A stretch of DNA of 43,394 nucleotides from Verrucomicrobiota bacterium (GTDB lineage: Bacteria > Verrucomicrobiota > Verrucomicrobiia > Limisphaerales > UBA9464), in contig CANGKZ010000042.1 of NCBI GenBank assembly GCA_947454705.1, positions 1 through 43,394 on the forward strand. Reading direction: 5' to 3'. Position numbers and translations under genes: made by a program. Below, piece after piece: positions 1,611-39,900 of the stretch. Each line of letters starts with the position of its first letter. Position 1 is the first letter of the stretch. The notes below the pieces were generated by a model. That model made no database searches and was not told the origin of the DNA. It worked only from the letters and a program-made list of their open reading frames with translations.

Positions 1611-2075
1611 GTTGGTTTTGCCCCTGTTTCCGAGATTTTGCGTCTCCGGGTTGGAGGCGTTCGAACTTGGAATGAACCAACGTTTCATATCCTATATAAA
1701 ACAACTCTAAGACCGTGTTGTGGAGATATAAGAACGGCAACAAACGCTTGACGATGGTATCATGAATGAGGCACCTAACACCCATTCAACATTTGCTGAT
1801 TCAGACCGGCAAGTGAGAGCCAATCGATTCAAACCCTTACCAATCCGCACCCAGAGTTAGCACCCTTCCGATCGCTTTCCCCGTTGGTGAATTGATGCCG
1901 TAATGCGGTTGCCTGGATCCAGAATCCGAGGCTTCCGATGGGCGACCTTTTGTCCTCGGGGGACGCGTCCGGAAGGAGGGAGGCAGTTCAAAAAAGAAAT
2001 CCGATGAGCGATGGGACGACGTCCAGCCGCGTCAATGCCCGCGCACATCGAGGCGATTCGAGTTCAACCGTTCCT

Positions 2076-3467
2076 ATGAGCCTTCATTCAAAACAACTCG
2101 TTCCTGCGTTGAGTTCCATTTTCGTCCTGCTGGCCCTCGATCGTTCGATCGCAGAGGCCGGAACCGTGGCAGCAGTGGGCAGAAATGTGTTTGGACAGGC
2201 GAGTCCCCCGGCGTCGGTTACGGATGCGGTTTCGGTGGCCGCTGGACGGGATTTCAGCCTCGCACTGACCCAACGCGGAACGGTGGTGGGATGGGGCTGG
2301 AATGGAGAAGGGCGTTCCTCGCCTCCTTCCGACTTGGGAAATGCGGTGGCGCTGTCTGCCGGCATTTATCACGCACTCGCCTTGAAGGCCGATGGTTCGG
2401 TGAGTGCCTGGGGATTTGGCGGCAACGAGCTTCTGGTGCTGCCCCAGAGCGTGACCAATGTGCTGGCGGTGGCGGCGGGCGGATACCACAGCCTGGCCCT
2501 TCGACGCGATGGGACGGTGGTGGGTTGGGGGTTCCACGGAAACGGGCGCACCACACCTCCGGCGACATTGACAGATGTCATCGCCATCGATGCCGGACGC
2601 GATCACAGCGTGGCCTTGAAGGCGAATGGGACGGTGGTGGCCTGGGGATTGAATGACGAGGGGCAGACGAATGTGCCGGACGGCCTGAAGGAGGTCGTAG
2701 CGATCGCCGCCGGGGAAAGCCACACGTTGGCGTTGAAGCGGGATGGCACCGTGGTGGCCTGGGGGCACAACGGGCACGGTCAATCCAGTGTTCCGGCCGG
2801 CCTCAATTCGGTCACGGCCATCGCAGCGGGATCTGCCCACAGTCTGGCCTTGAAGGCGGACGGATCGGTGGCCGCCTGGGGCGACAACACCTACGGGCAG
2901 TTGAATCTGAGCGGCTCCGACATTCGAGCCATTGCCGCCCGTGGGGCTCACAGCCTGGCCATTCGTGGCACGGGACCGTCGATTGAATCCCAGCCATTGA
3001 GCCAGACGGTGCTCGCCGGAGATGCGGTGAGCTTCAGCGTCGGTGCGATCGGAAGCGGCCTTTCGTACCAATGGTTCTTCAATGGCATGCCACTCGATAG
3101 GGCGACCCACTCGACCCTCAACCTGTCCGAAGTGTCCAAGCAGCGGGCGGGTCTTTATTCCGTTCAGGTGGGGTCGGCATCCGGAGTCCAGCAAAGCGCC
3201 AGTGCGGTGCTGGTTGTTCGCGGTTTGCAGCAGATGGAGGCGCCGGAAGCGCTGCCCGGGGGAGGGTTGAGACTCACCTTTGGGGATCAGAACGGGGAGG
3301 CGATCAGCGCTCCCAATGCGACCCGCTACGCCGTCGAGTCCTCCACGGACCTGGTCCACTGGACTCCGATCGAGACCGCACCCGTTCTCATCGATGGTCG
3401 TCTCGTTCTCAGGGATCCAACCGCCTCCATTTCCGGGAATCAGTTCTTCCGGGTGATCGAGAAATGA
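2076..3467 (+). CDS. secreted RCC1-type beta-propeller protein with Ig-like and C-terminal sorting-type domains
   Basis: The ATG at 2076 is preferred because a signal peptide follows at once (MSLHSKQLVPALSSIFVLLA, then SIAEAG); the open frame reaches back to 1938. Seven RCC1-like repeats fill residues 30-297. Each has the pattern AG..HSLAL followed by DGTV..WG, and the first six occur at an exact 39-residue period, matching one blade per repeat. An Ig-like domain (about 302-382, with YQW..NG and AG.Y.V) follows. The last 70 residues hold the Verrucomicrobial YAVESSTDLVHW...FFRV domain, found at the ends of many exported proteins of this group. The probable role is surface binding or adhesion; no catalytic residues are visible. 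The next gene begins 39 bp downstream. Confidence 0.85.
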   Translation: MSLHSKQLVPALSSIFVLLALDRSIAEAGTVAAVGRNVFGQASPPASVTDAVSVAAGRDFSLALTQRGTVVGWGWNGEGRSSPPSDLGNAVALSAGIYHALALKADGSVSAWGFGGNELLVLPQSVTNVLAVAAGGYHSLALRRDGTVVGWGFHGNGRTTPPATLTDVIAIDAGRDHSVALKANGTVVAWGLNDEGQTNVPDGLKEVVAIAAGESHTLALKRDGTVVAWGHNGHGQSSVPAGLNSVTAIAAGSAHSLALKADGSVAAWGDNTYGQLNLSGSDIRAIAARGAHSLAIRGTGPSIESQPLSQTVLAGDAVSFSVGAIGSGLSYQWFFNGMPLDRATHSTLNLSEVSKQRAGLYSVQVGSASGVQQSASAVLVVRGLQQMEAPEALPGGGLRLTFGDQNGEAISAPNATRYAVESSTDLVHWTPIETAPVLIDGRLVLRDPTASISGNQFFRVIEK

Positions 3468-3506
3468 AGCTGCGAACTCCGAATCAAACCCAAAACCGCC
3501 TCTTCC

Positions 3507-6500
3507 ATGAACTCGACGCCTATTAAAACCAGTTTTGCCTCCCGTGCCGGCAGTTGGGCTGCTGTTGCCAGTATCGCCCTGGGGCTTGTCCATTCCGCAC
3601 GAGCCGGAACTCCGGGATTGGTGGACACCACGTTTGCCGATCCCGCGATCACTGCGACTTCCCCGAGTGGAACCACCGGTGTTTATTCTCTGGATATCGA
3701 TTCGAACGATAAGATTGTTGTTCTTGGGAATTTCAACCTCGCGGGCAGCACCTCCCAAACCTATGGGAATCTTGCGCGCTTCAATTCGAACGGAACCCTG
3801 GATACGACGTTTCAGAATCCGAACATCAATGCGGGCATCACCGCGGGAACGGTGCTGGTACTCCCGAGCGGCAAGATTCTGGCGGGGGGCAATTTTCAAA
3901 CCGTTGGATCCGGGAATCTGAGCTACTCCCAAATGGCGCGGTTCAATTCGGACGGAACGGTGGATACCTCCTTTTCGAACCCGCAGATTTCCACGCTGGT
4001 CCGCGCGATCGCGGTGGATTCGAATCAAAAGATCTACGCCGCCGGAACTTTCCTCAACGTCGGCGGCAACACCGCCTACGCCCGGCTGGCGCGGTTCAAC
4101 AGCGATGGAACGTTGGACACCAGTTTCACGCCTCCCTCGTTCTCGTCCACGCTCTTCAACGTGACGCCAGATGCATCGGGGAAGGTTTATGTGGGTGGCT
4201 CATTCACGACCTTGACCGATGGAGTCTCCGGCACGTTGACGCGGAAAGGTCTCGCTCGGTTGAACTCCAATGGGACCATTGATGCAACGTTCGACGATCC
4301 GAACCTGGTCGCCCCAGCGACGTTGCTCACCCGCTCGATCGTCTTTGATTCCAACGGCAAGATCATGGTGGCCGGTACGTTTACGACCGCAGGGGCCTCC
4401 AATGCCACCCGCCGTGGTATCGCCCGATTCAACACGGACGGAACCCTGGACACTTCGTTCGTGGATTCCGGATACGACCTGAGCACCACCCGGGGAATCG
4501 TGCTGCAGGCCAATGACAAGGTTTTGGTGGCGAGTGTCACCATCAACAACGCCATCACGCCTCCGTTTTACCAAGGGATGCTTTTGCTGAACTCCGACGG
4601 GAGCCTGGACACCTCGTTCGGCAATCCTCGAATCACCGGTTTGGCCATTGCCATGAAGCTCAATTCCGGAGGTGGCATTCTGGTGGGTGGCACCCTGAGT
4701 TCCCTGGATTCGCCCGCCGTGAATCGTTCCAAGCTGGCCCGCTTGTTTGGAAATCCGACGCCTCCGATTGTCTCAAGCGTGACTGGCCCCTCTGCCGGGT
4801 CCTATCGGGCAGGACAGGTCTTGAGCTTTACGGTCAACTTTACCCAGTCGGTGGTGGTCACCGGATCACCCCGGATTCCATTGACCATCGGGAGTTCCTC
4901 GGTCTTCGCCACGTACGCCTCTGGAAGCGGATCCACGGCACTGGTGTTTTCCTACACGGTGCAATCGGGGGACCTGGACAGCAACGGCATCGAAGCGACC
5001 TCCCCGATCTCGCTGAACTCCGGCTCGATCAATACCTCGGGCGGGACGAGCAGTGGTCTGGCATTCACGGCTCCCAACACATCGGCAGTGCTGGTGGATG
5101 CAATCCTTCCTTCTGCGGTCAGCGTCACCTCCAGCACCACCGACGGCATCTATGATGTCGGTGCCGTCATCCCGGTGGCGGTGAGCTTTACCGAGGCAGT
5201 GACGGTGGTGGGAACTCCGACCCTGACTCTCGAAACGGGAAGTGTGGATCGGGTTGTGAACTATACCAGCGGCTCCGGCACTTCCACGCTGACTTTCAAC
5301 TACACGGTGCAAAGCGGCGACACGAGTGCGGACCTCGACTACGTCAGCACCTCGGCCCTATCCGCGAACGGCGGCACGATCCGGGACGCCGCCGGAAATG
5401 ATGCGGTTCTCACCCTTTCAACCCCGGGAACCATTGGGTCGCTCGGGGCCTCCAAGGCAATCCGCATCAACACCTCGACCCCCACGGACATCACCCTGAG
5501 TGCGAACCGCGTGGTGGATCAGGCCTCGGTGGGAACCACGGTCGGAACGTTGACTGCGGTCGATGCGGATGCCGGGGACAGCTTCACCTACACACTGGTG
5601 AGCGGCACCGGAAGCACTGGCAACGCGCGATTTTCGATCTCGGGCTCGACCTTGCAGGTGCAGACAACGCCGGCGATCTCGGACTCGAGCTACAGCATCC
5701 GGGTCCGGGCGACCGATGCCGCCGGGCACTTCTACGAGAAGGCGTTCACCGTGCTGGTCATGGCGGTGAGGATCGATGCCGGAGACTACCTGATCGCGGA
5801 CCGAGGACCCTATCGCAACACCGGTACCATTCTGGTCGTGAACAAGACCGGCGCGGTCCAACGGGTGATTTCCACCCAGCTGAAGGATCCGTATGACATC
5901 ACCACTGACAGCTCCGGGAATCTAATCGTGGCGGACTACGACTATGATCCGACCGGATTTGGGGCGGGCCGCGGTTCGAGTATTTTCCGAATTCATCTGC
6001 AGACCGGAGTGGCGACGCGGCTGGTGTCCGGCCAGGCGTTTGTGACGCCCCTGGGAGTCAAGGTGGAGTCCGACGGGAAGCTTCTGGTGGCGGATCCCGA
6101 CTATGGGTTTGGACCGGGCGCAACCTCCGCCGGTGCGGTGTTCCGGATTGATCCCGGAGTGAGCACGAACCGGCTGAGCTCGTTGAACCAATTCTACTTC
6201 CTCCAGGGTCTGGCTCTGGCTCCCAACGGGGATATCTATGTCTCGGACTACGGCGATGGCGGAGGCCGTCCGAATCGGGTGATCAAGGTGGACAAGACCT
6301 CGGGCGCCCAAACGGTGATGACCACGGGAGGTCTTCTGCGACCGATCGGACTCGCGGTGGAAAGCGACGGATCAAGTTTGGTTGTCGTGGATTCGACCTC
6401 GAAAAAGCTGGTGCGGGTGACGCTTCCAGGTGGGGTGCAGTCGGACGTTTCCACGGATTCGCAATTCATCCAGCCCACACACGTGGCGATCGAGGCCGAC

Positions 6501-6647
6501 GGCAATTACATCGTGACCGACGGCAAGACGAGTGCGGTGGCCGGGGAGCGACGGGTGTACCGGGTGAATCGAAATACCGGCGCGGCAACGGTGCTCGTAT
6601 CGGACGGATTTTTCCAACAACCCCGCGGAGTCTCAATCGCCCGTTAA
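3507..6647 (+). CDS. secreted delta-60 repeat / cadherin-like / NHL propeller protein
   Basis: A signal peptide (about residues 1-33, ending HSARA-G) opens a 1046-residue protein. Residues 38-415 carry about seven delta-60-type repeats with the hallmark RFNSDGTLDTSF and a following K-I-x-x-x-GxF strand, which form a propeller. Two Ig-like domains of the SwmB kind (about 420-655, each with YTVQSGD) and a cadherin-like domain (about 660-755, with VDADAGD) form a stalk. The last 290 residues are an NHL/SMP-30-like propeller with repeated LxxPxGLAVESDGxxxVxD motifs. The protein is extracellular and likely a binding or structural protein. It lies 22 bp upstream of the small peptide gene and could share a transcript with it. 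Confidence 0.85.
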   Translation: MNSTPIKTSFASRAGSWAAVASIALGLVHSARAGTPGLVDTTFADPAITATSPSGTTGVYSLDIDSNDKIVVLGNFNLAGSTSQTYGNLARFNSNGTLDTTFQNPNINAGITAGTVLVLPSGKILAGGNFQTVGSGNLSYSQMARFNSDGTVDTSFSNPQISTLVRAIAVDSNQKIYAAGTFLNVGGNTAYARLARFNSDGTLDTSFTPPSFSSTLFNVTPDASGKVYVGGSFTTLTDGVSGTLTRKGLARLNSNGTIDATFDDPNLVAPATLLTRSIVFDSNGKIMVAGTFTTAGASNATRRGIARFNTDGTLDTSFVDSGYDLSTTRGIVLQANDKVLVASVTINNAITPPFYQGMLLLNSDGSLDTSFGNPRITGLAIAMKLNSGGGILVGGTLSSLDSPAVNRSKLARLFGNPTPPIVSSVTGPSAGSYRAGQVLSFTVNFTQSVVVTGSPRIPLTIGSSSVFATYASGSGSTALVFSYTVQSGDLDSNGIEATSPISLNSGSINTSGGTSSGLAFTAPNTSAVLVDAILPSAVSVTSSTTDGIYDVGAVIPVAVSFTEAVTVVGTPTLTLETGSVDRVVNYTSGSGTSTLTFNYTVQSGDTSADLDYVSTSALSANGGTIRDAAGNDAVLTLSTPGTIGSLGASKAIRINTSTPTDITLSANRVVDQASVGTTVGTLTAVDADAGDSFTYTLVSGTGSTGNARFSISGSTLQVQTTPAISDSSYSIRVRATDAAGHFYEKAFTVLVMAVRIDAGDYLIADRGPYRNTGTILVVNKTGAVQRVISTQLKDPYDITTDSSGNLIVADYDYDPTGFGAGRGSSIFRIHLQTGVATRLVSGQAFVTPLGVKVESDGKLLVADPDYGFGPGATSAGAVFRIDPGVSTNRLSSLNQFYFLQGLALAPNGDIYVSDYGDGGGRPNRVIKVDKTSGAQTVMTTGGLLRPIGLAVESDGSSLVVVDSTSKKLVRVTLPGGVQSDVSTDSQFIQPTHVAIEADGNYIVTDGKTSAVAGERRVYRVNRNTGAATVLVSDGFFQQPRGVSIAR

Positions 6648-6669
6648 TCAACCTTTTCCCCAACGCAAC

Positions 6670-6825
6670 ATGAAGAAACTCGACAAGTTGGATTTGAGGG
6701 GCCGGCGGGAGTTCCTGCGAAAGGCGGTCAAACGCACGGTCATCCCGGTGCTGGTCGCCCACTCGCTGAAGAACATGAAGGCCGATCCGCTCTACGGTGA
6801 ATCGCGTCAGGATGAAGTGCTTTGA
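6670..6825 (+). CDS. 51-residue peptide with an RREFLRKA motif; candidate substrate of the adjacent tailoring cassette
   Basis: Translation from ATG 6670 to TGA 6823 gives MKKLDKLDLRGRREFLRKAV, then KRTVIPVLVAHSLKNMK and ADPLYGESRQDEVL. It starts with a basic segment and a twin-arginine-like GRREFLRKA, followed by a short hydrophobic stretch (TVIPVLVAHSL) and an acidic/polar tail with YGES. Short proteins with RRxFLKKA plus a proline-containing hydrophobic stretch are, from memory, often found beside PqqD/HprK-like genes; their role is unknown. The gene lies 22 bp after a large secreted protein and 221 bp before the glycosyltransferase. It has no strong Shine-Dalgarno, and its size makes it easy to miss. 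I infer it could be a precursor peptide or a small Tat-targeted protein. It could also be a chance frame. Confidence 0.6.
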   Translation: MKKLDKLDLRGRREFLRKAVKRTVIPVLVAHSLKNMKADPLYGESRQDEVL

Positions 6826-7046
6826 GGTGACGGCCAGGTCCGACGCTTCCGGAAAAATCGGTGTCAGGTAAGGGAGCTGCACGCTATCGTCGGCAGTACC
6901 GAAATGAGTCTTGGTTCCCATGCCGTGTCGAACTCCCGACGACCGCTGACTTGGAGTTTATTGAAACTGCGCTCAGGGCGGCCGATTTCGATCGGAGCCC
7001 AATCCAGCGACGACCGAAGCACGAGCCACGGGAATCGTCGCGGCGA

Positions 7047-8183
7047 ATGAAAGCATCCCCCACCATCGCCGCCTGCCTGATGGTTCGCGATTGTGCGGAG
7101 CATCTGCGGCGATGCCTTGCCAGTTTGGAAGGGCAGGTGGATGCGATCTACATCACCGATACAGGCTCGGTGGATGCGACCGTGGAGGTGGCCCGTTCGT
7201 TTGGGGCGATCGTCCGTTTTTTCCCGTGGTGTGACGATTTTTCTGCCGCACGAAACGCGAGTCTCGAGGGCGTGACCGAAGACTGGCTCTTGGTCTTGGA
7301 TGCGGATGACGCCTTCGCCCCCGGTGGAGTGGCAACGATCCGACCGCTTCTCGCTCCCGGCGACTGTGCCGCCACGGTGCTTTACCGCATTACTCCCAGC
7401 CACACTCCACTCAGGGCCACCCGGTTGTTCCGCAACGGCCTGGGATGTCGATATGAGGGAATCATTCACGAGAGTCCGGGCGACTGGTTGCGGGCGCGGG
7501 TTCGCGACGGATGGGCGCGGGTGGATCTTCCGGTGACCTTGTCCCATTATGGGTACACTGCGGATCTTCTCCCCGGGAAGGCGGCCCGGAATCTTCCGCT
7601 GCTTCGACGTGAGTGGCAGCGATTGCAGTCCGGCGGTTCGGAGGCGTCGCGGTTTCACGCGGGAGCCGAGCTCGGAATGGCGCTGGCCAAGAGTGGCGCC
7701 ACGAAGGAATCCGAAACCTGGTTTGCCGACCTGTGGCAGCGGGTGGAATCGGCCGACGCAATCCCCGTCGCTTCGAGGATGAAGGTGCTGCTGTGCCGGC
7801 TTTGGATTTTGAAGGAGCAGGGTGCGTCTTGCGACGCGGTTCGATTGGCGCTGGTCCGAAGTGTAGAGGGTAGCTGCGGTGCCGTTCCGGCCTACCAATT
7901 GCAGCGCGGGTTGATCGAGCTGGAGTGCGCCAATCCAGAATCCGCGGTTCAATGGTTGGAGCGGTTTCACGGGAGCATTGGAGCGGCCGAGTTTGAAGTG
8001 GCGGTTCCACAGGAATACCTCGGCGTTCGCCTGTGGGTCATGCTCGGTCAGTGTCGGATGGCATTGAAACAGCATGGAGCGGCTGCGGAGTGCTTCAAAC
8101 GTTGCGTCGAAATGGCCCCCGGGGTGGACGAATATTCGCTTCGACTTCGAGTGGCTGAATCCCTTGAACTGGCCCACACATGA
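7047..8183 (+). CDS. family 2 glycosyltransferase with helical (TPR-like) C-terminal region
   Basis: The N-terminal 230 residues are a GT-A fold. It starts PTIAACLMVRD, has the nucleotide-sugar segment TDTGSVD, the FFPWCDDFSAARN segment typical of SunT-like GT2 enzymes, and the metal-binding LDADD at residues 84-88. The remaining 150 residues are helical with TPR-like spacing. The open frame extends upstream to 6861, but those 62 residues look non-coding and GT2 homology begins right at ATG 7047. GT2 enzymes of this kind can glycosylate peptides or polysaccharides; the substrate here is not known. The stop overlaps the next start (ATGA), showing translational coupling to the PqqD-like gene. 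Confidence 0.85.
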   Translation: MKASPTIAACLMVRDCAEHLRRCLASLEGQVDAIYITDTGSVDATVEVARSFGAIVRFFPWCDDFSAARNASLEGVTEDWLLVLDADDAFAPGGVATIRPLLAPGDCAATVLYRITPSHTPLRATRLFRNGLGCRYEGIIHESPGDWLRARVRDGWARVDLPVTLSHYGYTADLLPGKAARNLPLLRREWQRLQSGGSEASRFHAGAELGMALAKSGATKESETWFADLWQRVESADAIPVASRMKVLLCRLWILKEQGASCDAVRLALVRSVEGSCGAVPAYQLQRGLIELECANPESAVQWLERFHGSIGAAEFEVAVPQEYLGVRLWVMLGQCRMALKQHGAAAECFKRCVEMAPGVDEYSLRLRVAESLELAHT

Positions 8184-8461
8184 TTGACGAAGCGTGGTCG
8201 AAATCACGGCCGACCATCACCGACCGATTCTTCTGGGAGCCGCTCCCGGACGGCTGCCTGCTCTTCGAGGAGGCCACGGGCGAGCTCATCACGCTCAATG
8301 GTCCGGCGGAGCTGATCCTGTCGCACTGCGATGGCGAGCATTCCATCGGGGATCTCCGAAGGATGGTGGAGGCAGAACTGGAGGTTTCGCCCTCGGTCAC
8401 TGAGGAGTTGATCCGCCGGCTTCTCTCCGCCGGAGTGATTGCGAATGAGGCTGTGGAATGA
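8180..8461 (+). CDS. PqqD-like peptide-binding protein
   Basis: This 93-residue protein has the PqqD winged-helix pattern: a strand pair around GCLLFEEATGELITLN, then helices with ILSHCDGEHSIGDL, and a final helix VTEELIRRLLSAGVI. PqqD-type domains bind leader peptides and hand them to modifying enzymes in many RiPP pathways. The gene overlaps both neighbours by 4 bp (ATGA junctions at 8180 and 8458), so it is made together with the glycosyltransferase and the HPr-kinase-like protein. This strongly suggests that the cassette handles a peptide. It matches the PqqD-related members of HPr-rel-A type cassettes. Confidence 0.85.
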   Translation: MIDEAWSKSRPTITDRFFWEPLPDGCLLFEEATGELITLNGPAELILSHCDGEHSIGDLRRMVEAELEVSPSVTEELIRRLLSAGVIANEAVE

Positions 8462-9333
8462 GCCTGCTCCTGCGCTATCGCAAGCTCGGCATCGAGGCGC
8501 GCCTGCGGGTGGATGCACCGGAATTGGAACCGCTCGCCCTGGGACTCCAGTCCTCTGCGGTGACGGGAAGGGAATCCTGCGAGGAGACCGCCACTGCGGA
8601 ACTCGTCTGGCAGCGCCGATCCGGCGAGACCTGGCAGATCCGACTGAAGGGGGAACTCTGGCGCGAGGCCGCGCTGAGCCAGGAGGAGTTGTTTCTGCAG
8701 AGTGACAGCCTTTTGGATGATCTCATTCGTGAACAATTGGCGCTCGTGCCGATGCTTCACGCCGGGGGAGTGGTTCACCCCTCGGGTGGAGCGGTCGTGA
8801 TTTGCGGCTCCAGTGGTGCAGGAAAGACGTCTTTGGTCACCGAATGCATACTTCAAGGCTGGAACTGGCTGTCGGATGAGCGTCTGTGTTTTCGGCAGGA
8901 GAACCCTTTTCAGGCCGAGGGCTTCCGACGCAACTTCAACCTGAAGGAACGTTCGTTCGGCAATTTCCCGGAAATCGCATCGCTGCCCAGCACCCGGGAA
9001 CTGATTCGCCCCCACACCGGAAAACGGGTTCGATTCTTTGATCCCGAGGAGCTGGGACGGGGACGCTTTCAAGCGGAGGGGACCGTCCGGGCGGTGGTGG
9101 TGCCCAGATTTGATGCATCGGGTAACGGCACCGTTGTGACTCCACTGGGCGGTGTGGAATTGGTCAACCTGCTGGTCCCTGAATTGCGCACCACGGAAAT
9201 TCACACCGCGCGGTGGATCGCAGAATTCTCGCGGCAGGTGTCGGCATTCAGTCTCCGTTATTCCAATCCCCGCGGCCTGGCGGACGTGCTGGGATCGCTT
9301 TTGGAGTCGGGTGACCTCCTCTCACGACCATGA
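8458..9333 (+). CDS. HPr kinase-like P-loop protein (HprK-related kinase A type)
   Basis: The protein has 291 residues. Its central region reads like the HPr kinase core: LHAGGVV at 100-106, a Walker A GSSGAGKT at 117-124, then WNWLSDE where HPr kinases have their VADD motif. The N-terminal 80 residues are variable. In paeninodin-type lasso clusters, kinases of this family phosphorylate the C-terminal serine of the precursor peptide, and in HPr-rel-A cassettes the substrate is unknown. Coupling to a PqqD-like gene upstream and a nucleotidyltransferase downstream (4-bp overlaps on both sides) favours a peptide-modifying role over sugar regulation. True HprK is unlikely, since no HPr gene is nearby and the N-terminal HprK domain is absent. 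Confidence 0.85.
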   Translation: MSLLLRYRKLGIEARLRVDAPELEPLALGLQSSAVTGRESCEETATAELVWQRRSGETWQIRLKGELWREAALSQEELFLQSDSLLDDLIREQLALVPMLHAGGVVHPSGGAVVICGSSGAGKTSLVTECILQGWNWLSDERLCFRQENPFQAEGFRRNFNLKERSFGNFPEIASLPSTRELIRPHTGKRVRFFDPEELGRGRFQAEGTVRAVVVPRFDASGNGTVVTPLGGVELVNLLVPELRTTEIHTARWIAEFSRQVSAFSLRYSNPRGLADVLGSLLESGDLLSRP

Positions 9334-10466
9334 TCGCCGAAGCGGGCAGGGACCATCGAACTGCGCACGGTTGCCTTCCGACCGAGCGCCAGCGTCTTCT
9401 CCTGACCGCCTGCACCGCTCCGGCGGAATCCGCCGCGAAGGCGTGGCAAACCTGGCGGAGCGGAGGAGATCTTGCTTCCGTTGATCCGGCCTCGGAGCGG
9501 CTTCTGCTTTGGATTTTTCATCGACGCGATGAGCTCGGGCTTTCGGTCGAGGATCGGAACACGCTCGAAGCGTCCTACCGTCGGGTTTGGGTCCGCAACC
9601 AGGTGCTTCTCAATCGATGCGCCACTTTGATTGCAGCTCTCGAGGCGCGCGGTATTGAGCCGATCCTGCTGAAGGGAATTTCCCTGCTGAGCGAATTATA
9701 CGGAGACGAGGGAGGCCGCTACCTCGAGGATTTCGACCTGCTGGTCCGTCCCGACCAGCTGGAGGCTGCTGTGAAGACCTTGGAATCGGCGGGCTGGAGT
9801 CTTCCCCGTGGCGAATCGCTCCGGCCAGAAACGAAACATTCGCAGGGCTTTCTTAATGCAGAGGGGTTGAGCTGTGATCTTCATTGGAACCTTTTCCGTT
9901 TGTATCATGGGGTGCCGATGGATGCGTCCATCTGGAATGGTTGTCGAAAAATCGCGTTCCGCGGCGCGACGGCTGCCGTCCTTTCGATCGAGCACCAGCT
10001 GCTCCATCTTTGCGTTCACAGCATGGCCTGGGAACCCGTGGCTCCGATCCGGTGGGTGCTGGACATTCACCTGCTGCTCGAACGCCATCCGGTCCGATGG
10101 GATTTTATCGAACAGGAAGCCCTGCGGTGGGAGTTAACCCTGCCCCTGTCCGAGGCACTCAGCGTGTTGCGACAAATTGTCCCCGGTTCCGTTCCGGACG
10201 ACCTTTTGAAAAGGCTCGAGCAGGCGGCCGTCAGCGCGGATCAGAAACGGCTCTACACCCACTGGGTGACCATGCCCTCGCCAGTGGGAGTGCTCCGCGG
10301 TGTGTTTCAAGATTGGAACGAGGCGCGAATCGATGGAAAGCGTCCGGGATTAACGACGTTCCTGCGCCAGCGTTGGAAGGTTCACTCGTTCTGGGCGCTT
10401 CCCCGCCAGGCGATTCTTCGGCTCCGTCGACGGTGGATGAGCCTGCGGATCGGACGCCGCTCCTGA
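9330..10466 (+). CDS. nucleotidyltransferase family protein (NTP_transf_5, PF14907-like)
   Basis: This is a 378-residue protein. The diagnostic block lies at residues 113-148: LLKG, then LYGDEGGRYLEDFDLLVRP. The acidic pair D134-x-D136 sits in the place of the metal-binding aspartates of nucleotidyltransferase folds. Further on come SIEHQLLHLCVHSM and a helical C-terminus, as in PF14907 proteins. Relatives occur in lasso-peptide clusters alongside HPr-kinase-like enzymes, where additional phosphate transfer to the peptide has been proposed. The start overlaps the kinase gene (ATGA). It is the last gene of the cassette, and the next gene starts 64 bp later with an unrelated function. Confidence 0.85.
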   Translation: MIAEAGRDHRTAHGCLPTERQRLLLTACTAPAESAAKAWQTWRSGGDLASVDPASERLLLWIFHRRDELGLSVEDRNTLEASYRRVWVRNQVLLNRCATLIAALEARGIEPILLKGISLLSELYGDEGGRYLEDFDLLVRPDQLEAAVKTLESAGWSLPRGESLRPETKHSQGFLNAEGLSCDLHWNLFRLYHGVPMDASIWNGCRKIAFRGATAAVLSIEHQLLHLCVHSMAWEPVAPIRWVLDIHLLLERHPVRWDFIEQEALRWELTLPLSEALSVLRQIVPGSVPDDLLKRLEQAAVSADQKRLYTHWVTMPSPVGVLRGVFQDWNEARIDGKRPGLTTFLRQRWKVHSFWALPRQAILRLRRRWMSLRIGRRS

Positions 10467-10530
10467 CCACAGTGGAAACGATCGGCTTCTTGACAGGTCA
10501 GGGCGGGTTCGATGAGTTCATGTCTCTCTG

Positions 10531-12420
10531 ATGTTCCCTCCCATACTCCCGAACTCCGTTCCGTTGCGTCTTTGCCGGAGTCGTCTTGCCGTTGCGTTGT
10601 GGGTCACGCTGCTGGCGTTCCGTCTGGCAGCAGCAACCCCAGACTGGGTGTCCCAGATTCGATCGAACCCCGCGTCGCGCATCCTGGCGGCGGACGGCAA
10701 GGATGCGGTCGCAGTCAAACTCGAGCGAACCTGGCGGGGCGAGGTCTGCGAATTGCGGCTTCGCAACACGGGCACGGCGCCCGTTCGGGTGCATGAGGTG
10801 GTTGTGTTTGATCTCGCGCACGGAATGCGAGGCGACACGCCGGTGTACTCGGAGGGATTCCAGATGCTTTCCCAAACCGCCGGCACGCTGGCGGCGCCGC
10901 GCGATGTGGGCGGGTACACGGACCGCGGGCACTACCGACTGCCCGAGCCGGCCGGATATCGTACCGGATACGGCATGATGATGGTTTCGCCCGCTGGTGC
11001 CGACCGCGTGCTGGTTGGATTTACTTCGTGTCGCCGGTTCAGCGGGAAATTCCACTTCAACGGCGAGCGTATTCAGGCGGTGATCGACACGGAGGATCTT
11101 GAATTGCGACCTGGGCAATCCTGGCGGCTTGAAGACCTGGTGGTGACCGCCGGACCGGATCGCGATGCCTTGCTCGAACGCTTGGCCAAGGGGATCGGAC
11201 GCAACCATCCGCGGCTGCGTCATGATCCGGTCCCGACGGGCTGGTGCTCGTGGTATTGCTTCGGGCCCGGGGTGACGTCGAAGAACATCACCGACAACCT
11301 CGACTGGATCGCGCGGAACTTGCCCGCGCTGCGGTACATTCAAATCGATGACGGGTACCAACCCTGGATGGGAGACTGGCTGGAAACGGGCAAGGCGTTT
11401 GGCGGCGGCGTTCAGGGCGTGTTGAAGGAAATTCGCGGACGCGGATTCGAACCCGCGATCTGGGTGGCCCCGTTCATTGCCAGCGAGCAATCGCGTTTGT
11501 TCCAGGAACATCCGGATTGGTTTGTGAAGGACGATGCGGGCAAGCCGCTGCGATCGGACCGCGTGGGCTTTGGCGGTTGGAGACTTGGTCCTTGGTATTC
11601 GCTGGATGGCACGCATCCGGAGGCCCAGCGCTGGCTGGAGCAATTGTTCCGCACCATGCGGCGCGAGTGGGGCTGCACCTATTTCAAACTCGATGCGACC
11701 TATTGGGCGACGATTCCCGGCGGGCACCGATATGATTCAAACGCGACCCGCGTGGAGGCGTATCGACGCGGCATGGAAGCCATCGCCCGCGGAGCAGGGG
11801 ATGCCTTGATCATGGGGTGCAATCATCCCATCTGGCCTTCCCTCGGATTGGTGCACGCATCGAGAAGTTCGCTCGATATCGAACGTTCGTGGGCGAGCTT
11901 CACCGGGATCGGACGCGAGAACCTCCTCCGCGGATGGCAGAATGGCCGGCTGTGGTGGAATGATCCGGATTGCGTGGTGCTGCACGATGGGGCGTCGAAG
12001 GACATCATGGACGCCGGCGGCAAGTTCACCACCGCGGGCAAGGTTCCCGATGCGGAATATCAATTCCATGCCACGCTTATCTACGCCACCGGCGGCATGC
12101 TGCTGAGCGGCGACGACCTCACGCGGATCACGCCGCGTCGGGCGGAAATGCTTAAGAAACTCGTACCTCCCTCCGGCGTGTGCGCGCGGTTTTCCGACGA
12201 GACCTTCAGAATGGGCGTGACCGAGCTGAAGGGGCGGCGAATGGTGTCGGTCTTCAACTGGAGCGATGCCCCGGTGCAGCGGATTATTCCGCTGACCGGA
12301 AAATCGCGTCTCACCGACTACTGGACCGGTGAGGATCTGGGGGTGCACGTCGGAGGGTATACCCTGGAATCTCTTCCCCCACATTCTGCGCGACTCGTTG
12401 AGGTTAAACCGGTTCGCTGA
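10531..12420 (+). CDS. secreted GH36-type alpha-galactosidase (melibiase)
   Basis: The protein has 629 residues with a signal peptide (cleavage near residue 35), an N-terminal beta-sandwich and a central TIM barrel. Characteristic segments are GWCSWYCF at 237-244, IQIDDGYQPWMGDW at 270-283, and the catalytic nucleophile in YFKLDATYW (D388). The acid/base region CNHPIWPSLGLVHASRSSLD ends at D449, matching the C-x-x-P...R-x-S-x-D pattern of clan GH-D. Both catalytic aspartates are present, so activity on alpha-galactosides or related glycans is likely. A C-terminal beta-domain (about 540-629) completes the usual layout. Its role would be periplasmic or surface polysaccharide degradation. Related GH36 members act on other alpha-glycosides, so the exact substrate is uncertain. 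Confidence 0.88.
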   Translation: MFPPILPNSVPLRLCRSRLAVALWVTLLAFRLAAATPDWVSQIRSNPASRILAADGKDAVAVKLERTWRGEVCELRLRNTGTAPVRVHEVVVFDLAHGMRGDTPVYSEGFQMLSQTAGTLAAPRDVGGYTDRGHYRLPEPAGYRTGYGMMMVSPAGADRVLVGFTSCRRFSGKFHFNGERIQAVIDTEDLELRPGQSWRLEDLVVTAGPDRDALLERLAKGIGRNHPRLRHDPVPTGWCSWYCFGPGVTSKNITDNLDWIARNLPALRYIQIDDGYQPWMGDWLETGKAFGGGVQGVLKEIRGRGFEPAIWVAPFIASEQSRLFQEHPDWFVKDDAGKPLRSDRVGFGGWRLGPWYSLDGTHPEAQRWLEQLFRTMRREWGCTYFKLDATYWATIPGGHRYDSNATRVEAYRRGMEAIARGAGDALIMGCNHPIWPSLGLVHASRSSLDIERSWASFTGIGRENLLRGWQNGRLWWNDPDCVVLHDGASKDIMDAGGKFTTAGKVPDAEYQFHATLIYATGGMLLSGDDLTRITPRRAEMLKKLVPPSGVCARFSDETFRMGVTELKGRRMVSVFNWSDAPVQRIIPLTGKSRLTDYWTGEDLGVHVGGYTLESLPPHSARLVEVKPVR

Positions 12421-12438
12421 ATGGGGAGGTTTTAGCGA

Positions 12439-12467
12439 TTGGGGTGTACCAAAAATGGGTGTATAAG
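12439..12467 (+). promoter_or_regulatory. candidate sigma-70-type promoter
   Basis: TTGGGG at 12439-12444 and TATAAG at 12462-12467 are separated by 17 bp, in a locally AT-rich stretch between two genes. The spacing is ideal and both boxes are close to consensus. The start of transcription would fall near 12475, leaving a leader of about 110 bases before the ATG at 12588. Confidence 0.4.
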
Positions 12468-12587
12468 AAAATTTGTAGCAAGGGGCTGCCTGAGTGATTC
12501 CAGAGTGGACAGCAAGGCGAAATGGTGGTGTTTTTTAGTCCACTTCCGCCCAATCAAACTGCCCGCCTAGATAAAGGGACTCGCTTT

Positions 12588-15500
12588 ATGTTTGAGGCCA
12601 ACCAACCCCGCGAATCATCTGGCATTTCTCGGTCGTCACATTCATCTGTCCTTGGGGCGTTCGCGCTTTCCTTGGGCCTGATTTCACAGGTTCTACCCGT
12701 GAGCGGAGCGGGATCCATTACCGACATTGCCTGGGTTTCAAACGGCGGTTCGTTCGTCAACGACACCGTGGTTGATGCAAAAACTTCACCCCTGGCATTC
12801 ACGGCAACAAATGATCTCTCACAACCGTTTCTGAATGCGGCTGACTCGACCATCGCCCTCAATTACGGAACGTATTACGCGTTTTCATTTCGTGCGTTCG
12901 GAGCGCATGTCGGACCGGGAAAAGTCTCGTTTGTGCTGAATGGGGTTCCGTATTCCAAGGATGTCGTCTTCCCTGATCCCACCTCGGCCGGCGTGCCGTT
13001 TGCCAGCTTTGCGCTTCCGAATGGCGACACTGTCACGTGCTCGGCGACAGGATTGGCTGCGGATCGCATTCGAATCATTCCGGATGGTGGCGGATTGTCC
13101 GGGGATGGAACGCCGGATGCCTGTTATCTCTTCAGCTACACTCCGGCGGTCAATGCCGTGCCGTTGCCCGCCTTCGGTGCCGTGAGTGCCTCCCCGGGTT
13201 TTGCGCCGATTCGAGCCAACAATCCGTGGACCTTTACCGCAACCTATTCCACGCCGGCCGGGGTTGCGGACCTGAAGCTGCGAGTGCAATCCACCCTGAC
13301 TCCCGCAGTTGAAGGCAGTTGGGCTGACCTGCCTGGGAATCCCTACATGACGGCGGACGGAACGACGTGGACCACCAAAACGTCGGATGTTCCCACGGGG
13401 TATCGCCATTTCCGGGTGATCGCGTCCGCATCCAACCGTAAGGATGCCATCTCGACCGGTATTGGACCGTTCGTCGTGCTGCCCGCGATTTCTCCCGGTG
13501 AAGCCGATTGGAATCTTGCCCGTGACCTCAAAAAGGTTGAGCTCTCGGGAAGCCCCCAGGAATTGGCCAACCCCAATGCCGTGGTCTCGGAGTGGAGCTA
13601 TGGGTACCGCCCGATCGCCGACCTCGCGACGACGAAATACACGCCATTCAACACCACCGAGCACGAGAATGTCCTTTGGAACAGCACCGACTTCCAGGGC
13701 TGGTTGCATCGAGCCGATGATGGGCCGCTGATTGCGGCCAATACCGGCCAGAATCCGATCGTCGCGTCCGGTGGATTTGGCCCCATCAATCCTGGCGAGG
13801 CTGGAATCTGGCCGGGCCGAGGTGGCCCTGCTGCTGTCGCGCGATGGACCGCACCCCAGACGGCGCGATACCGGATCAACGCCTATTGGAAGAAGATCGA
13901 TTTTGGCAGCGACAATGGACTGGTCAGCGGCGTGGTGCTGGATGGGAAGGTCCTCTACAACCAGACGTGGTACAACGCCGACTCCCCCAGCTACGCCGGG
14001 ACCGTCGCGATTGCTGCGGGGTCGGTTCTCGACTTCGTGATGGGGCCGACCGGCAACTACCAGTATGGCGGGTCCAAGTTCAATGTGACCCTGACCATCC
14101 TCCTCGGCGATCTGCCCCCCGTGGCGTCGACGAGCGCGAGGGCCGAACGGGCACCCATCAAGTCCAGCACCCCCTGGACGTTCACCGCGACCTATCCCAC
14201 GCCGCCAGGGGTGACCGATCTGAAGCTCCGCGTGCAGTCGACGATCACGCCGGGGGTGGAGGGCAGCTGGACGGATCTTCCCGGCAATCCCTACATGACC
14301 CGCGACGGTGATGTCTGGACCCTCGCTGCGACCTCCATTCCGACCGGAAGTCGTTCCTTCCGCATCCTTGCCGCGTCGCCCAACTACGTCGATGGGCGCT
14401 CGGATCTGATGGGACCGTACGTGGTGCTGCCGGACGTCGCAGCGGGCGTGCCTGAGTGGAACGCGGCCCTCGATCTCAAGCGCAACGAATTGCTCGGGAG
14501 CCCGAGTGAATCGATGAATCCCAACCCCACGACGGGCGAGTGGAGCTACGGCTACCGGAAGGAAGCGGACCTGGCCAGCACCCAGCTGACCCGGTTCGCC
14601 TCGACGGAACACATTCGGACCGGGGGTGATTCACCGGATTTGCATGGATGGTATCATCCGGCCACGCAGGGTCCCTCGATTTTTGCCAATGTCAGCGAGC
14701 AGCCCGTGGTGGTGGCGTTTTGCTGCGGCCCCCTGATTCCCATTGATCCCAACGAAGTGGCGCTCTGGCCCGGCAATGATGGGTCGGCGGCCGTGGTGCG
14801 GTGGACCGCGCCGCTGACCGCCCAGTACAAGATCGCTGCCTACTGGCGGAAGACGGACACCCACGGCGGTGGGGGGTGTCAGAGCGCGGTGGTGGTGGAT
14901 GGGAAGGTGCTGTTCCAGCAGGCCTGGGGCAATGACGCCACCCCGGGCTACACCAACACGGTAGCAATCAACGCGGGCTCGGTGGTGGATTTCGTCATGG
15001 GGCCGAATGGCGATTTCAATTTCGACGGCTCCAAGTTCAACGCGACGATCGGCCTGCAGACGTTGGGCACGCTGCCGGCCTTCGGTGCTGTGAGCGCTTC
15101 GCCTGGCGTGGCTCCGGTTCGGTCCAGCAATCCGTGGAGTTTCCGGGCGACCTACTCCAGCCCGGTTCCCGATCTCAAGCTGCGGGTCCAGTCCACGGTC
15201 ACGCCCGACGACGAATCCAGCTGGAGCGACCTCCCGGGCGGTTCCGCCATGACGAAGGTTGGCGGCGACTGGGTCCTTGACACCACCGACGTGCCGACCG
15301 GAGTTCGTTCGTTCCGCGTCCTGGCATCCGCCCCGTTCTTCAGCGATCGGATCTCGACGTTGATCGGACCGTTTACTGTGCAGGAAGGCATCGGGCCGTT
15401 TGGTGCCTATGTCGTCAACACCCCGCCTCCGTTTAGGGCCGGGAGTTTTTGGTTTTTCGCGGTGGAACAGCCAAGCCAACTCCCCGGACTTCAGGTGCGA

Positions 15501-36950: not shown

Positions 36951-36952
36951 AT
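36856..36952 (+). promoter_or_regulatory. structured 5' leader with four consecutive hairpins
   Basis: The four stems are GACCG/CGGTC (36856-36870, 5-nt loop), CTGGGAGC/GCTCCCGG (36872-36904, one G-U, 17-nt loop), CTCGG/CCGAG (36905-36918, loop CCCT) and ATGGGC/GCCCAT (36935-36952, 6-nt loop). The last one includes the first two bases of the start codon at 36951. Close packing directly before a 5.7-kb gene suggests a regulatory RNA leader. It matches no riboswitch class known to me. Confidence 0.45.
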
Positions 36953-39900
36953 GAAATTCAGTCCGATTCTTACCTGCATTCTCCTGCTTAGCTCGTTCAT
37001 CGCAACCGAGCCCCGCGCGCAAACGCCCGTGACCGATGCCGCCACCCTTGCCGATGCCGCAAAGGTTCAGGTTCAAGTCCAACTCCCGCCCAAAGGCCTG
37101 AACCACCGCCTCACGCCCGTGGTGACCATCAGCACCAACGAGCTGGGCCAAATCACCCAAAGCACCAACAGCTACTGGCACCTCGAAACGGGCATCCACT
37201 ACCAGGACGACCAAGGCGAGCTCCAACCCTCCGTCGCCGCCTTCGAAGTCAAAGCATCGAAAGTCACTGCCGAAACGCTGCAACACAAAGTCCGACTCGA
37301 CGCCAACATCAACACCAAGGGTTCCGTCGCCGTGGTGCTGCCCGATGGAACGAAGCTGCGCAGCCACGTCAGCGGGTTGCGTTACTCGGATCCCACCACG
37401 GGCAAGGCCGTGGTGATCTCCGAAGTGAAGGACTCGCAAGCCTACCTCGTGAGCAGCAACCAGGTGGTGTACTTCGATGCCTTCAAGGACGTCTCGGCCG
37501 ATGTCCGCTACACCGTCACCCTCGCGGGACTCGAACAAGACATCCTCCTCCACGAAGCCCCGCCCGCGCCCGAGAGCTATGGCATAAGCTCGGCCACGAG
37601 CCGGTTGGAAGTCCTCACCGAATTCGTCAATCCCCCCAGCGCCAAGAAACTCGCCAAACGCGGACAACGCCTCCCGGAAGGATTGGATCGTCCCCTGGAG
37701 ACCCGGACCCGGACCGAACAGGAGGATGTGGCCGTGGACTTCGGAGCCATGCGCATCGGCGAAGGCCGCGCCTTCCGTTCCGACACCCAGAAGGACAGCC
37801 CCATCGGCGTCGGCAAAAGCTGGCTCGTGGCCGACAAGCGGGAGTTCCTCGTGGAAGCCGTGGAACTGCAAATCGCCGCCCCCATGCTCCAAGGACTTCC
37901 CGTGCGCAAGCAGGGAGCGGGCCTGCGAACCAAGGACCAGTCCCCACCCGGCACTTCCCCAAAACTCCAAGCCTCCCATCAAGCCATCCCTTCGAGTCGC
38001 GGGGAGACCGGCAGTCAAATGACCGCCCAAAAAGGCTGGCCTGCCGACAGGCCCAAACCCCAATCCACGGAAGCCCGGTCGCCCGAACTGGTGCTGGACT
38101 ATGTGTCGATGCTCACCCCGACCGGAGTAAAGCAGGCCCTGCCTGATTTTACCTTCCAGGGCGACCAAACCTACTACATCAAGGGAAACTACTTTCTCTA
38201 CGGCACCACCACCCTTGAAGGCGGGGCCGTGTTGAAGTTCGCGAAGTACGATCGAACGAACGACATCAGCCTGTGGATCGGTGGAAACCTGGTCTGCAAC
38301 ACGTCGCCCTATCGTCCCGCGGTTTTCACGGCCTGCGACGACAACACAGTCGGCGTGACGCTTCCATCGACCTTGAGCACCGGCACTGTGGATCCCGGGG
38401 CCATTTATGGGGTTCGCGGATTGGGCTGCTGGTACGGAGCTCCCGCGTGGGATGTCCACGACATCCGGTTTATCGGCCAAGGCTACGCCCTGTACCTCGG
38501 CAATCAGGCCAACAACAAGATCCACAACGTTCAGATCGCCAGCCGCGGATGGGCCTGGACCGTGGGCATTCACATCGCCGGAAATCCCGCCTCGACCACC
38601 CCGTACACCAACTACGTGGGCAACGTCCTGTTCTCCAGCCTGGGTGCGGCCATCGGCTACGAGACGCCGGTGGGACAAACGGTCACCCTGGACTTCGAAA
38701 ACATCACCTCCGACAACAACTACCTGTTTTGTCCCCCGTCGACGGAATCAAAGTTCAGGGAAGTCCGAATTAAGAACAGTCTGCTCGGGCCCCTCTGGAA
38801 TACGGTCCTGAACGATGCTCAGTACTTCCCGGGAACGCAGTTCACCGACCTCGGAGGAAACCAGGTCATCCGGGACCGCACCGCCTGGGCCTCCACCTTC
38901 ACCACGGCCCTTGCAGGAAAGTTCTACCTTGCGGATGCCTCCCCGCTTCACGGCACCGGCACCCAAAAGGGCAATGCGATCCTCTACACCGACCTCGCCA
39001 CTGCCAGCACCTACGCCCCGCAAACCCTCACCGCCGCCCTGACCGATGGCACCACCCTCCCGCCACGCGTGGCCCGCGACGTCAACGTGGCCGATCCCGG
39101 TTATCACTACCCGGCGCTCGACTACCTGGTCCGCAACCTCCCGTTGAATGCCAGTGCCAACGTGTCGCTCGTTAAAGGCGTCAGCGTGGGATGGTCGGGG
39201 CCGTATGCCTTCACCCTGCAGAACGGCAGCTCCTTCAGCTCACGCGGACTGCCGGACGCGATGAACCACCTCGTCCACCACAGCCTGGTTCAGGAAGCCC
39301 CGCCGACGGTCGGAGCCATCTCCACCTTTGCCATTTCCCCCGCGAATACCACGCCGCCGAAGCTGAGCCTGCGCTTCACGGAAATCGCCAGCCTCGGAGG
39401 ACGCGGCGATCTCATCCTACCTCCCAGCAGAAGCGCGGGCGATCCGGTCATCACGCCCCTGATCCTCGCCGATTCCCTGTTCGGCGGCATGCAGTTCCAA
39501 TACGTTCCCGCTCCGGGCTACTACCCCATGGTGACCGTGGCCAACAACGTGTTTGACCGCGGCTATTTCGGCCTTCACGCCGGCCTCAACGGCAACGCCT
39601 ACCTGACCGCCGCCATCTTCAACAACACCTTCTACCGCCTCCTTTCCGAAACCGGTGCCGGCCGATTCGTCCTCAATGGCGTGGCCAACCAACCCGCATG
39701 GCAGGTGGTTGACAACGTCTTCGACCGCACCCCCGTGCAGATCCTCGGCACATGGACCGGCACCTTCGACTACAACGCCTTTCCCAACGGCACCATCTAT
39801 CTGGGATCCCACGTGATCACGGGAACGCTGAGCTACACCAACGGTCCGCTGGGCCGGTGGTATCAAGTGGGCACAGGATTTCAGGACACAGGAAGCCGCG

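Follow-up and report, generated by a model that had tools for sequence, protein, structure and literature searches.

A 43,394-nucleotide stretch of contig CANGKZ010000042.1 (positions 1 to 43,394; assembly GCA_947454705.1, Verrucomicrobiota bacterium; hereafter the window) carries a block of seven same-strand genes that, with about an even chance in our judgment, encode a non-lasso peptide decoration system, similar to those for ribosomally synthesized and post-translationally modified peptides (RiPPs) and attached to a pair of secreted beta-propeller proteins. The genes putatively encode, in order, an RCC1-repeat protein, an NHL-repeat protein, a 51-residue peptide, a GT2 glycosyltransferase, a PqqD-family protein, an HprK-like P-loop protein and a PF14907 nucleotidyltransferase, and this order is identical in another genome of the same order (G195) and in Chthoniobacter flavus Ellin428. 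Sequence comparison establishes the linkage, conservation and family identities of the gene set, which is real, rare and patchy; every chemical step, the binding of the peptide by the PqqD-family protein, export and the tie to the propellers are what we infer.

A conserved seven-gene block

All seven genes lie on the forward strand of the window. The first encodes a secreted RCC1-repeat protein with a C-terminal Ig-like domain (1938–3467; PF13540, 199 bits) and the second a large secreted protein with a C-terminal NHL propeller (3507–6647; PF17164, 157 bits; PF01436, 41 bits), followed by the peptide (6670–6825), the glycosyltransferase (7047–8183), the PqqD-family protein (8180–8461), the HprK-like protein (8458–9333) and the nucleotidyltransferase (9330–10466). 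An initial annotation of this DNA had placed the peptide, PqqD, HprK-like and nucleotidyltransferase frames correctly and described the enzyme genes as joined by 4-bp overlaps, which is borne out at the GT2/PqqD, PqqD/HprK and HprK/nucleotidyltransferase junctions. Its limits for the unit (6670–10466) were too narrow, as both propeller genes belong upstream, and it began the glycosyltransferase gene at a GTG (6861); the gene most likely starts at the ATG at 7047, because both orthologous frames begin there and the earlier start adds 62 residues found in neither.

Identities between the window and G195 or C. flavus, respectively, were 61 and 53% for RCC1, 56 and 52% for NHL (in C. flavus for the C-terminal frame only), 59 and 39% for the peptide, 53 and 45% for GT2, 48 and 45% for PqqD, 56 and 54% for the kinase and 54 and 39% for the nucleotidyltransferase. 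Outside the block the flanks differ between the loci, by eye and as far as each reaches, the C. flavus locus starting at the RCC1 gene. A check of co-occurrence found the small peptide in an unchanged position next to the four enzymes in 3/3 genomes having a close kinase homologue (the window's genome, G195 and C. flavus), so that a gene-encoded candidate precursor and putative substrate adjoins predicted modifying enzymes in every full block, as in a RiPP cluster. The C. flavus NHL gene (L021) is split into overlapping frames (1628–7222 and 7035–8366), reflecting a frameshift or a sequencing error.

Homologues were sought in genome draws that overlap between searches, and the counts are not additive. 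With the kinase protein as query, 8 of 245 order genomes gave matches at E 0.001, strong only in the window's genome (G000) and G195; the same query matched 5 of 387 phylum genomes at 1e-6, and a kinase profile matched 3 of 384 class genomes at 1e-8, both strongly in the window's genome alone. A peptide profile matched 17/245 order genomes at E 0.01, with strong matches in four (G000, G195, G088 and G112) and scores of 18–23 bits in the other 13; seven of 337 phylum genomes passed (G000 alone strong), as did six of 137 from the order of C. flavus (C. flavus alone strong). Four other genomes of the window's genus gave no kinase, peptide or NHL match at the limits used, plasmids gave no kinase match (tblastn, E 1e-3), and weak peptide matches in G101 and G293 were set aside on finding no such block by eye. 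A genome_contigs scan, which runs via two short peptide patterns and sees close relatives only, returned two loci, NZ_ABVL01000008.1 (C. flavus Ellin428) and RFSE01000171.1, the latter stretch being the exact reverse complement of part of the G195 contig. RFSE01000171.1 is titled Proteobacteria, yet G195, with the same contig, sits in the window's order; the record is probably mislabelled.

Family assignments in the initial annotation held for GT2, PqqD and PF14907, each above its Pfam cutoff; that of the HprK-like protein is weak, as discussed below. The glycosyltransferase (PF00535, 51.4 bits; cutoff 23.3) has C-terminal TPR repeats, and its nearest solved structures in the PDB are GmaR (E 3.4e-26) and SunS (E 7.5e-21), with similarity over about 190–210 residues; the SunS-type model TIGR04195 scores 50.2 bits against a cutoff of 350 (orthologues 50.6 and 55.3). 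The nucleotidyltransferase (PF14907, NTP_transf_5, 140.5 bits; cutoff 31.2) has no PDB match by sequence at E 1, and an AlphaFold2 model built from 3 sequences (predicted local distance difference test, pLDDT, 74) has the nucleotidyltransferase fold. Its nearest folds are MenT1, LnuA and ANT(2'') (Z 14–15 over 150–179 residues, root-mean-square deviation 3.0–3.6), and it also resembles FKRP (Z 9–10), all being fold neighbours only, with families outside that list still possible.

The PqqD-family protein (PF05402, 27.8 bits; cutoff 23.4) is probably a RiPP recognition element. It has only weak PDB matches by sequence (best TfuB1, E 0.2). The initial annotation had stated that PqqD domains bind leader peptides, in agreement with a published account of PqqD-like proteins as leader peptide binders (PMC7470986). 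The HprK-like P-loop protein is probably a kinase: it matches HprK in the PDB by sequence (E 0.005) and keeps H101, a Walker A motif (117–124, GSSGAGKT) with K123, and D140-E141 in 3/3 genomes. The His, Lys, Asp and acidic residue match the His-Lys-Asp-Asp motif reported for lasso kinases (PMC9266682), with Glu in place of the second Asp.

Among 11 distinct loci searched for distant relatives, nine had a kinase match, and the fetched stretch of seven of these nine held a nucleotidyltransferase homologue (not L026 or L015); PqqD matched in L022, L025 and, weakly, L026. In L022 (G460:C59, 4674–10547, minus strand) a 172-aa Tat-like (twin-arginine translocation) protein, a PF14907 nucleotidyltransferase, PqqD, an HprK-like protein and a fucose pyrophosphorylase/GHMP kinase form one run, a related system whose substrate may be a different one, the last gene hinting at a sugar nucleotide. 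Pfam found no lasso gene among 9 proteins of L022 and L025, and the other distant loci were read by eye only; kinase–nucleotidyltransferase pairs with no lasso gene in sight thus occur elsewhere in the phylum with other partners. A 13-bit peptide-profile match in L025, on the strand opposite to its triad, was taken as chance.

The peptide and the adjoining propeller proteins

The proposed substrate, a 51-aa peptide with an RRxFL motif, a short hydrophobic stretch and the tail DPLYGESRQDEVL, has homologues at five other places and no Pfam or NCBIfam match at the limits used. It is 51, 51 and 52 aa long at the corresponding position of the window, G195 and C. flavus, respectively. Nonsynonymous and synonymous substitution rates (dN/dS, NG86) were 0.20/2.28 between the window and a second copy in its own genome (C33, below), 0.29/1.18 between the window and G195, and 0.29/1.47 between C33 and G195. 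Since the resulting ratios, about 0.09–0.25, are well below 1 in three pairs, the peptide is, judging by its codons, under purifying selection; cross-genome conservation together with these ratios rules out a chance open reading frame (ORF).

Only this peptide, among the 143 ATG ORFs of 40–120 aa in the window, has RRxFL in its first 30 residues, and the motif is present in 6/6 homologous peptides. The peptide looks like a Tat-type export signal, an appearance that comes from the motif by sequence, without a signal predictor; its hydrophobic stretch is only about 11 residues. Of 24 weak peptide-profile loci, seven match at the start (offset 0–2) of 440–504-aa ORFs with RRxFLR, a motif also found in Tat signals. 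In 13 the match fell at another position or in none of the frames, and the remaining four yielded no ORF line.

The tail carries a P[LA][YF]xx[ST] motif in 6/6 peptides, the Ser/Thr being the sixth residue of the PLYGES-like motif. Tyr42 is Phe in the C33, C. flavus, G088 and G112 peptides, so that Tyr, unlike Ser/Thr, is no conserved acceptor; Cys is absent from the window, C33, G195 and C. flavus copies, which makes S-glycosylation impossible there. The C. flavus tail reads PPLFGQSSAGRQEPI. An RQ(D/E) tail is present in 4/4 peptides whose locus also has a PqqD gene and in 0/2 (G088 and G112) where neither PqqD nor kinase was found, a comparison of six peptides in which the two lacking this tail come from one genus and two of the other four from one genome. 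The N-terminal MKKL also differs in the G088 peptide, and either end of the peptide could therefore be the part that PqqD reads.

The RCC1 gene keeps its position in G195, C. flavus, C33 and G088. Both propeller proteins have Sec-like signals by eye, and translation of RCC1 probably begins farther downstream, at a Met that precedes a signal-peptide-like stretch, likewise read by eye, with no predictor. The C-terminal 330 aa of the NHL protein share 73, 67, 55 and 43% identity with C33, G195, C. flavus and G088, respectively, and the N-terminal part is variable (DUF5122 and cadherin-like in the window). Across the window, L036, L021 and L059 (by Pfam) and L011 (by eye), the conserved C-terminus is joined to N-terminal parts of very different length and make-up, including DUF5122, cadherin, Big_13 and SWM repeats.

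The second copy in the window's genome has RCC1, NHL, peptide (G000:C33:44762-44914, found by the peptide profile) and PqqD in a row (L036, G000:C33:36000-54000, positions 8393–14226, minus strand). Downstream, the neighbouring ORF runs on the opposite strand, and no GT2, kinase or nucleotidyltransferase adjoins; here, in a single case, PqqD has remained beside the peptide in the absence of the other enzymes. The genome as a whole has one kinase match, two PqqD matches and, for PF14907, the window's nucleotidyltransferase and one weak place below the cutoff. In G088, RCC1, NHL (2509 aa) and peptide are followed by other genes. Kinase and PqqD homologues were not found in the drafts of G088 (93% complete) or G112 (76% complete), the best E values being 0.02 for the kinase and 0.19 for PqqD, GT2 and the nucleotidyltransferase not having been searched for there; the G112 peptide lies at a contig end, with its N-terminus cut and its upstream side out of view.

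Because the C33 copy keeps the propellers and peptide with PqqD alone, and G088 keeps them with no kinase or PqqD found, RCC1-NHL-peptide looks like a core to which the enzymes are an optional layer. NHL loci numbered five, in 4 of 245 order genomes, and four were followed by the peptide. A tree built on RCC1 and the NHL C-terminus, covering 5 loci and 738 columns, pairs the window copy with C33 as its sister (bootstrap 100), and the placement of C. flavus and G088 is poorly supported (bootstrap 52). The simplest reading of this tree and gene content is a duplication in this lineage followed by loss of GT2, kinase and nucleotidyltransferase from the C33 copy.

The cassette (GC 60.9) is close in base composition to the window (61.2), giving no sign of recent import on that measure, and a scan for promoters and terminators found 1 and 8, compared with 1.8 and 9.5 in shuffled sequence. 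Anti-phage defence was set aside, as PADLOC gave no match for the five proteins submitted (peptide, GT2, PqqD, kinase and nucleotidyltransferase). Elsewhere in the window, positions 36951–42611 encode a 1886-aa protein with a weak match to peptidase C25, a gingipain-type family (25.1 bits; cutoff 23).

Possible activity and competing explanations

If the peptide is the substrate, the PqqD-family protein would bind it and bring it to the enzymes, the kinase would phosphorylate the tail serine (S45), the nucleotidyltransferase, if it acts like PsmN of pseudomycoidin, may attach a sugar or nucleotide to the phosphate, and the glycosyltransferase would add or extend a sugar. Its own signal-like N-terminus could then direct the product through Tat or Sec to the cell surface, where it would act together with the RCC1 and NHL proteins, possibly serving them as a ligand or an anchor. 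This keeps the peptide-tailoring proposal of the initial annotation, which the linkage to the enzymes favors, and adds the propeller pair and the Tat-type look of the peptide, which it had not foreseen.

Several observations weigh against the proposed peptide decoration. The HprK assignment is weak and below all curated cutoffs (PF07475, 15.7 bits against 33.3; TIGR04352, 36.4 bits against 200, with orthologues at 46.9 and 54.4), and the AlphaFold2 model of the kinase (pLDDT 45.8) is too poor for a fold search. The second Asp of the lasso-kinase motif is Glu141 in 3/3, and an alignment of eight of the nine distant kinases (L015, the weakest, left out) has five DD and three DE. Ser45 is not C-terminal, unlike the residue that lasso kinases modify, and neither a protease nor a transporter gene was noticed among the genes of the block. 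The peptide and propellers in G088, with no kinase or PqqD found, argue that the peptide is not merely an enzyme substrate, and a more distant NHL gene (G002, 239 bits) has no peptide downstream, its upstream side being cut by the contig end. The G088 and G112 peptides retain RRxFL and a VPxxVxYS stretch, neither of which need be what PqqD reads, and the RQ(D/E)–PqqD correlation, drawn from six peptides, is a lead, not proof. The view of the peptide as precursor in the initial annotation is partly supported, by the linkage in 3/3 full blocks; the C33 copy, with PqqD alone, and G088 suggest that serving these enzymes as a precursor is probably not its sole function, and because G088 keeps it with no kinase or PqqD found, it probably also has a role without decoration.

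Alternatively, the enzymes may decorate the secreted RCC1 or NHL proteins, with the peptide exported alongside them as a small subunit or anchor of their complex. We consider this unlikely, though it survives best among the alternatives, as the propeller genes are present in 3/3 full blocks and the C33 copy, RCC1-NHL-peptide is constant even in G088, and the glycosyltransferase resembles GmaR, which modifies a protein. Yet the known role of PqqD-like proteins as leader peptide binders (PMC7470986) and the tracking of PqqD by the RQ(D/E) tail in the six peptides both point to the peptide, and given the Sec-like signals of the propellers, any decoration of these proteins would have to precede their export.

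A sugar or cell-surface glycan as the target of kinase, nucleotidyltransferase and glycosyltransferase, with PqqD an adaptor and the peptide incidental, seems improbable. The fucose pyrophosphorylase/GHMP kinase beside the related triad in G460 and the likeness of the nucleotidyltransferase model to FKRP, a phosphosugar transferase, are consistent with such a target; on the other hand, the peptide is fixed between NHL and GT2 in 3/3 full blocks, and inspection of the block by eye in G195 and C. flavus showed no flippase, polymerase or other glycan gene. Least probable is that the peptide functions without modification, as a signal or membrane peptide exported by Tat or Sec, and that the enzymes have a different target in the cell. 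The RRxFL and hydrophobic stretch of the peptide and its retention in G088 and G112, with no kinase or PqqD found there, would fit; the enzyme genes, overlapping by 4 bp in an operon-like arrangement, and the tail difference that tracks PqqD speak against it.

Returning to decoration of the peptide, a bolder version, which we hold only tentatively and would not expect to prove right, is a new class of peptide product. Its leader would be a Tat-type export signal, and PqqD, kinase, nucleotidyltransferase and GT2 would build a phospho-glycan on the tail of the roughly 50-residue peptide, to be exported and held by the propeller pair, one member of which has a species-variable N-terminal part; the decoration layer would come and go as the core stays. 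If peptide decoration is correct, it would be tied to a pair of secreted propellers, and the reading can be tested in a named strain, C. flavus Ellin428.

Comparison with known systems

The HPr-rel-A cassette (TIGR04352, TIGR04353), to which the initial annotation likened these genes, also has a PqqD-like protein adjoining an HprK-related kinase, and TIGR04352 is the best NCBIfam match of the kinase. The label does not hold at curated cutoffs (36.4 bits against 200 for TIGR04352 and 21.4 against 35 for TIGR04353). We take the content of this cassette from NCBIfam model names and the initial annotation, and found no paper holding the name. SunS and GmaR share GT2 sequence similarity with the block; the TIGR04195 score is below its cutoff, and the peptide lacks Cys in the window, C33, G195 and C. 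flavus copies.

In lasso peptide clusters, too, a short peptide is accompanied by tailoring enzymes of these kinds. In a review of the field, the kinases PadeK, ThcoK and SyanK phosphorylate a C-terminal Ser, as PsmK does in pseudomycoidin, where PsmN is needed for hexose on that phosphate and whether PsmN itself is the sugar transferase is left open (PMC9266682); Butyrivibrio fibrisolvens lasso clusters are described with a nucleotidyltransferase, HPr kinase and GT2 (PMC7533575). These accounts agree with the initial annotation that HPr-kinase-like proteins and such nucleotidyltransferases occur in lasso clusters, and the paeninodin/pseudomycoidin and Butyrivibrio clusters also share a PqqD-type B1 recognition protein (PMC9266682, PMC7533575), as the PF05402 match provides here. 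Unlike them, the block has a peptide with a Tat-like start and no C-terminal Ser, and two secreted propellers. No B2 protease or cyclase was found among 27 window ORFs scanned with Pfam (8 + 9 + 10; not every ORF of the window, and the rest of the genome was not searched), and reading the G195 and C. flavus loci by eye revealed none. The earlier statement that the 43-kb window lacks both therefore holds for the ORFs scanned, which are not all of those present, and a lasso reading was dropped on this absence.

No paper was found joining RiPP, twin-arginine, leader peptide and PqqD, or Verrucomicrobi, RCC1 and NHL repeat. Among the matches listed, judged by title and the start of the abstract, none described Chthoniobacter lasso peptides or this gene set in the literature on Verrucomicrobi, RiPPs, PqqD and precursor peptides. 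The enzyme kinds are known from lasso clusters, and the substrate type, missing cyclase and propeller partners are in none of the papers found. If peptide decoration is correct, HprK-like kinases and PF14907 nucleotidyltransferases, familiar as lasso tailoring enzymes, would also act on linear, export-signal-like peptides, and the block would offer a cyclase-free system for learning what such nucleotidyltransferases really add. A precedent for recognition elements acting with export-signal precursors comes from DUF2063 proteins, reported to pair with DUF2282 precursors bearing Sec signals (PMC12710340); here, the recognition protein is a free PqqD, the motif is Tat-like and the enzymes are different.

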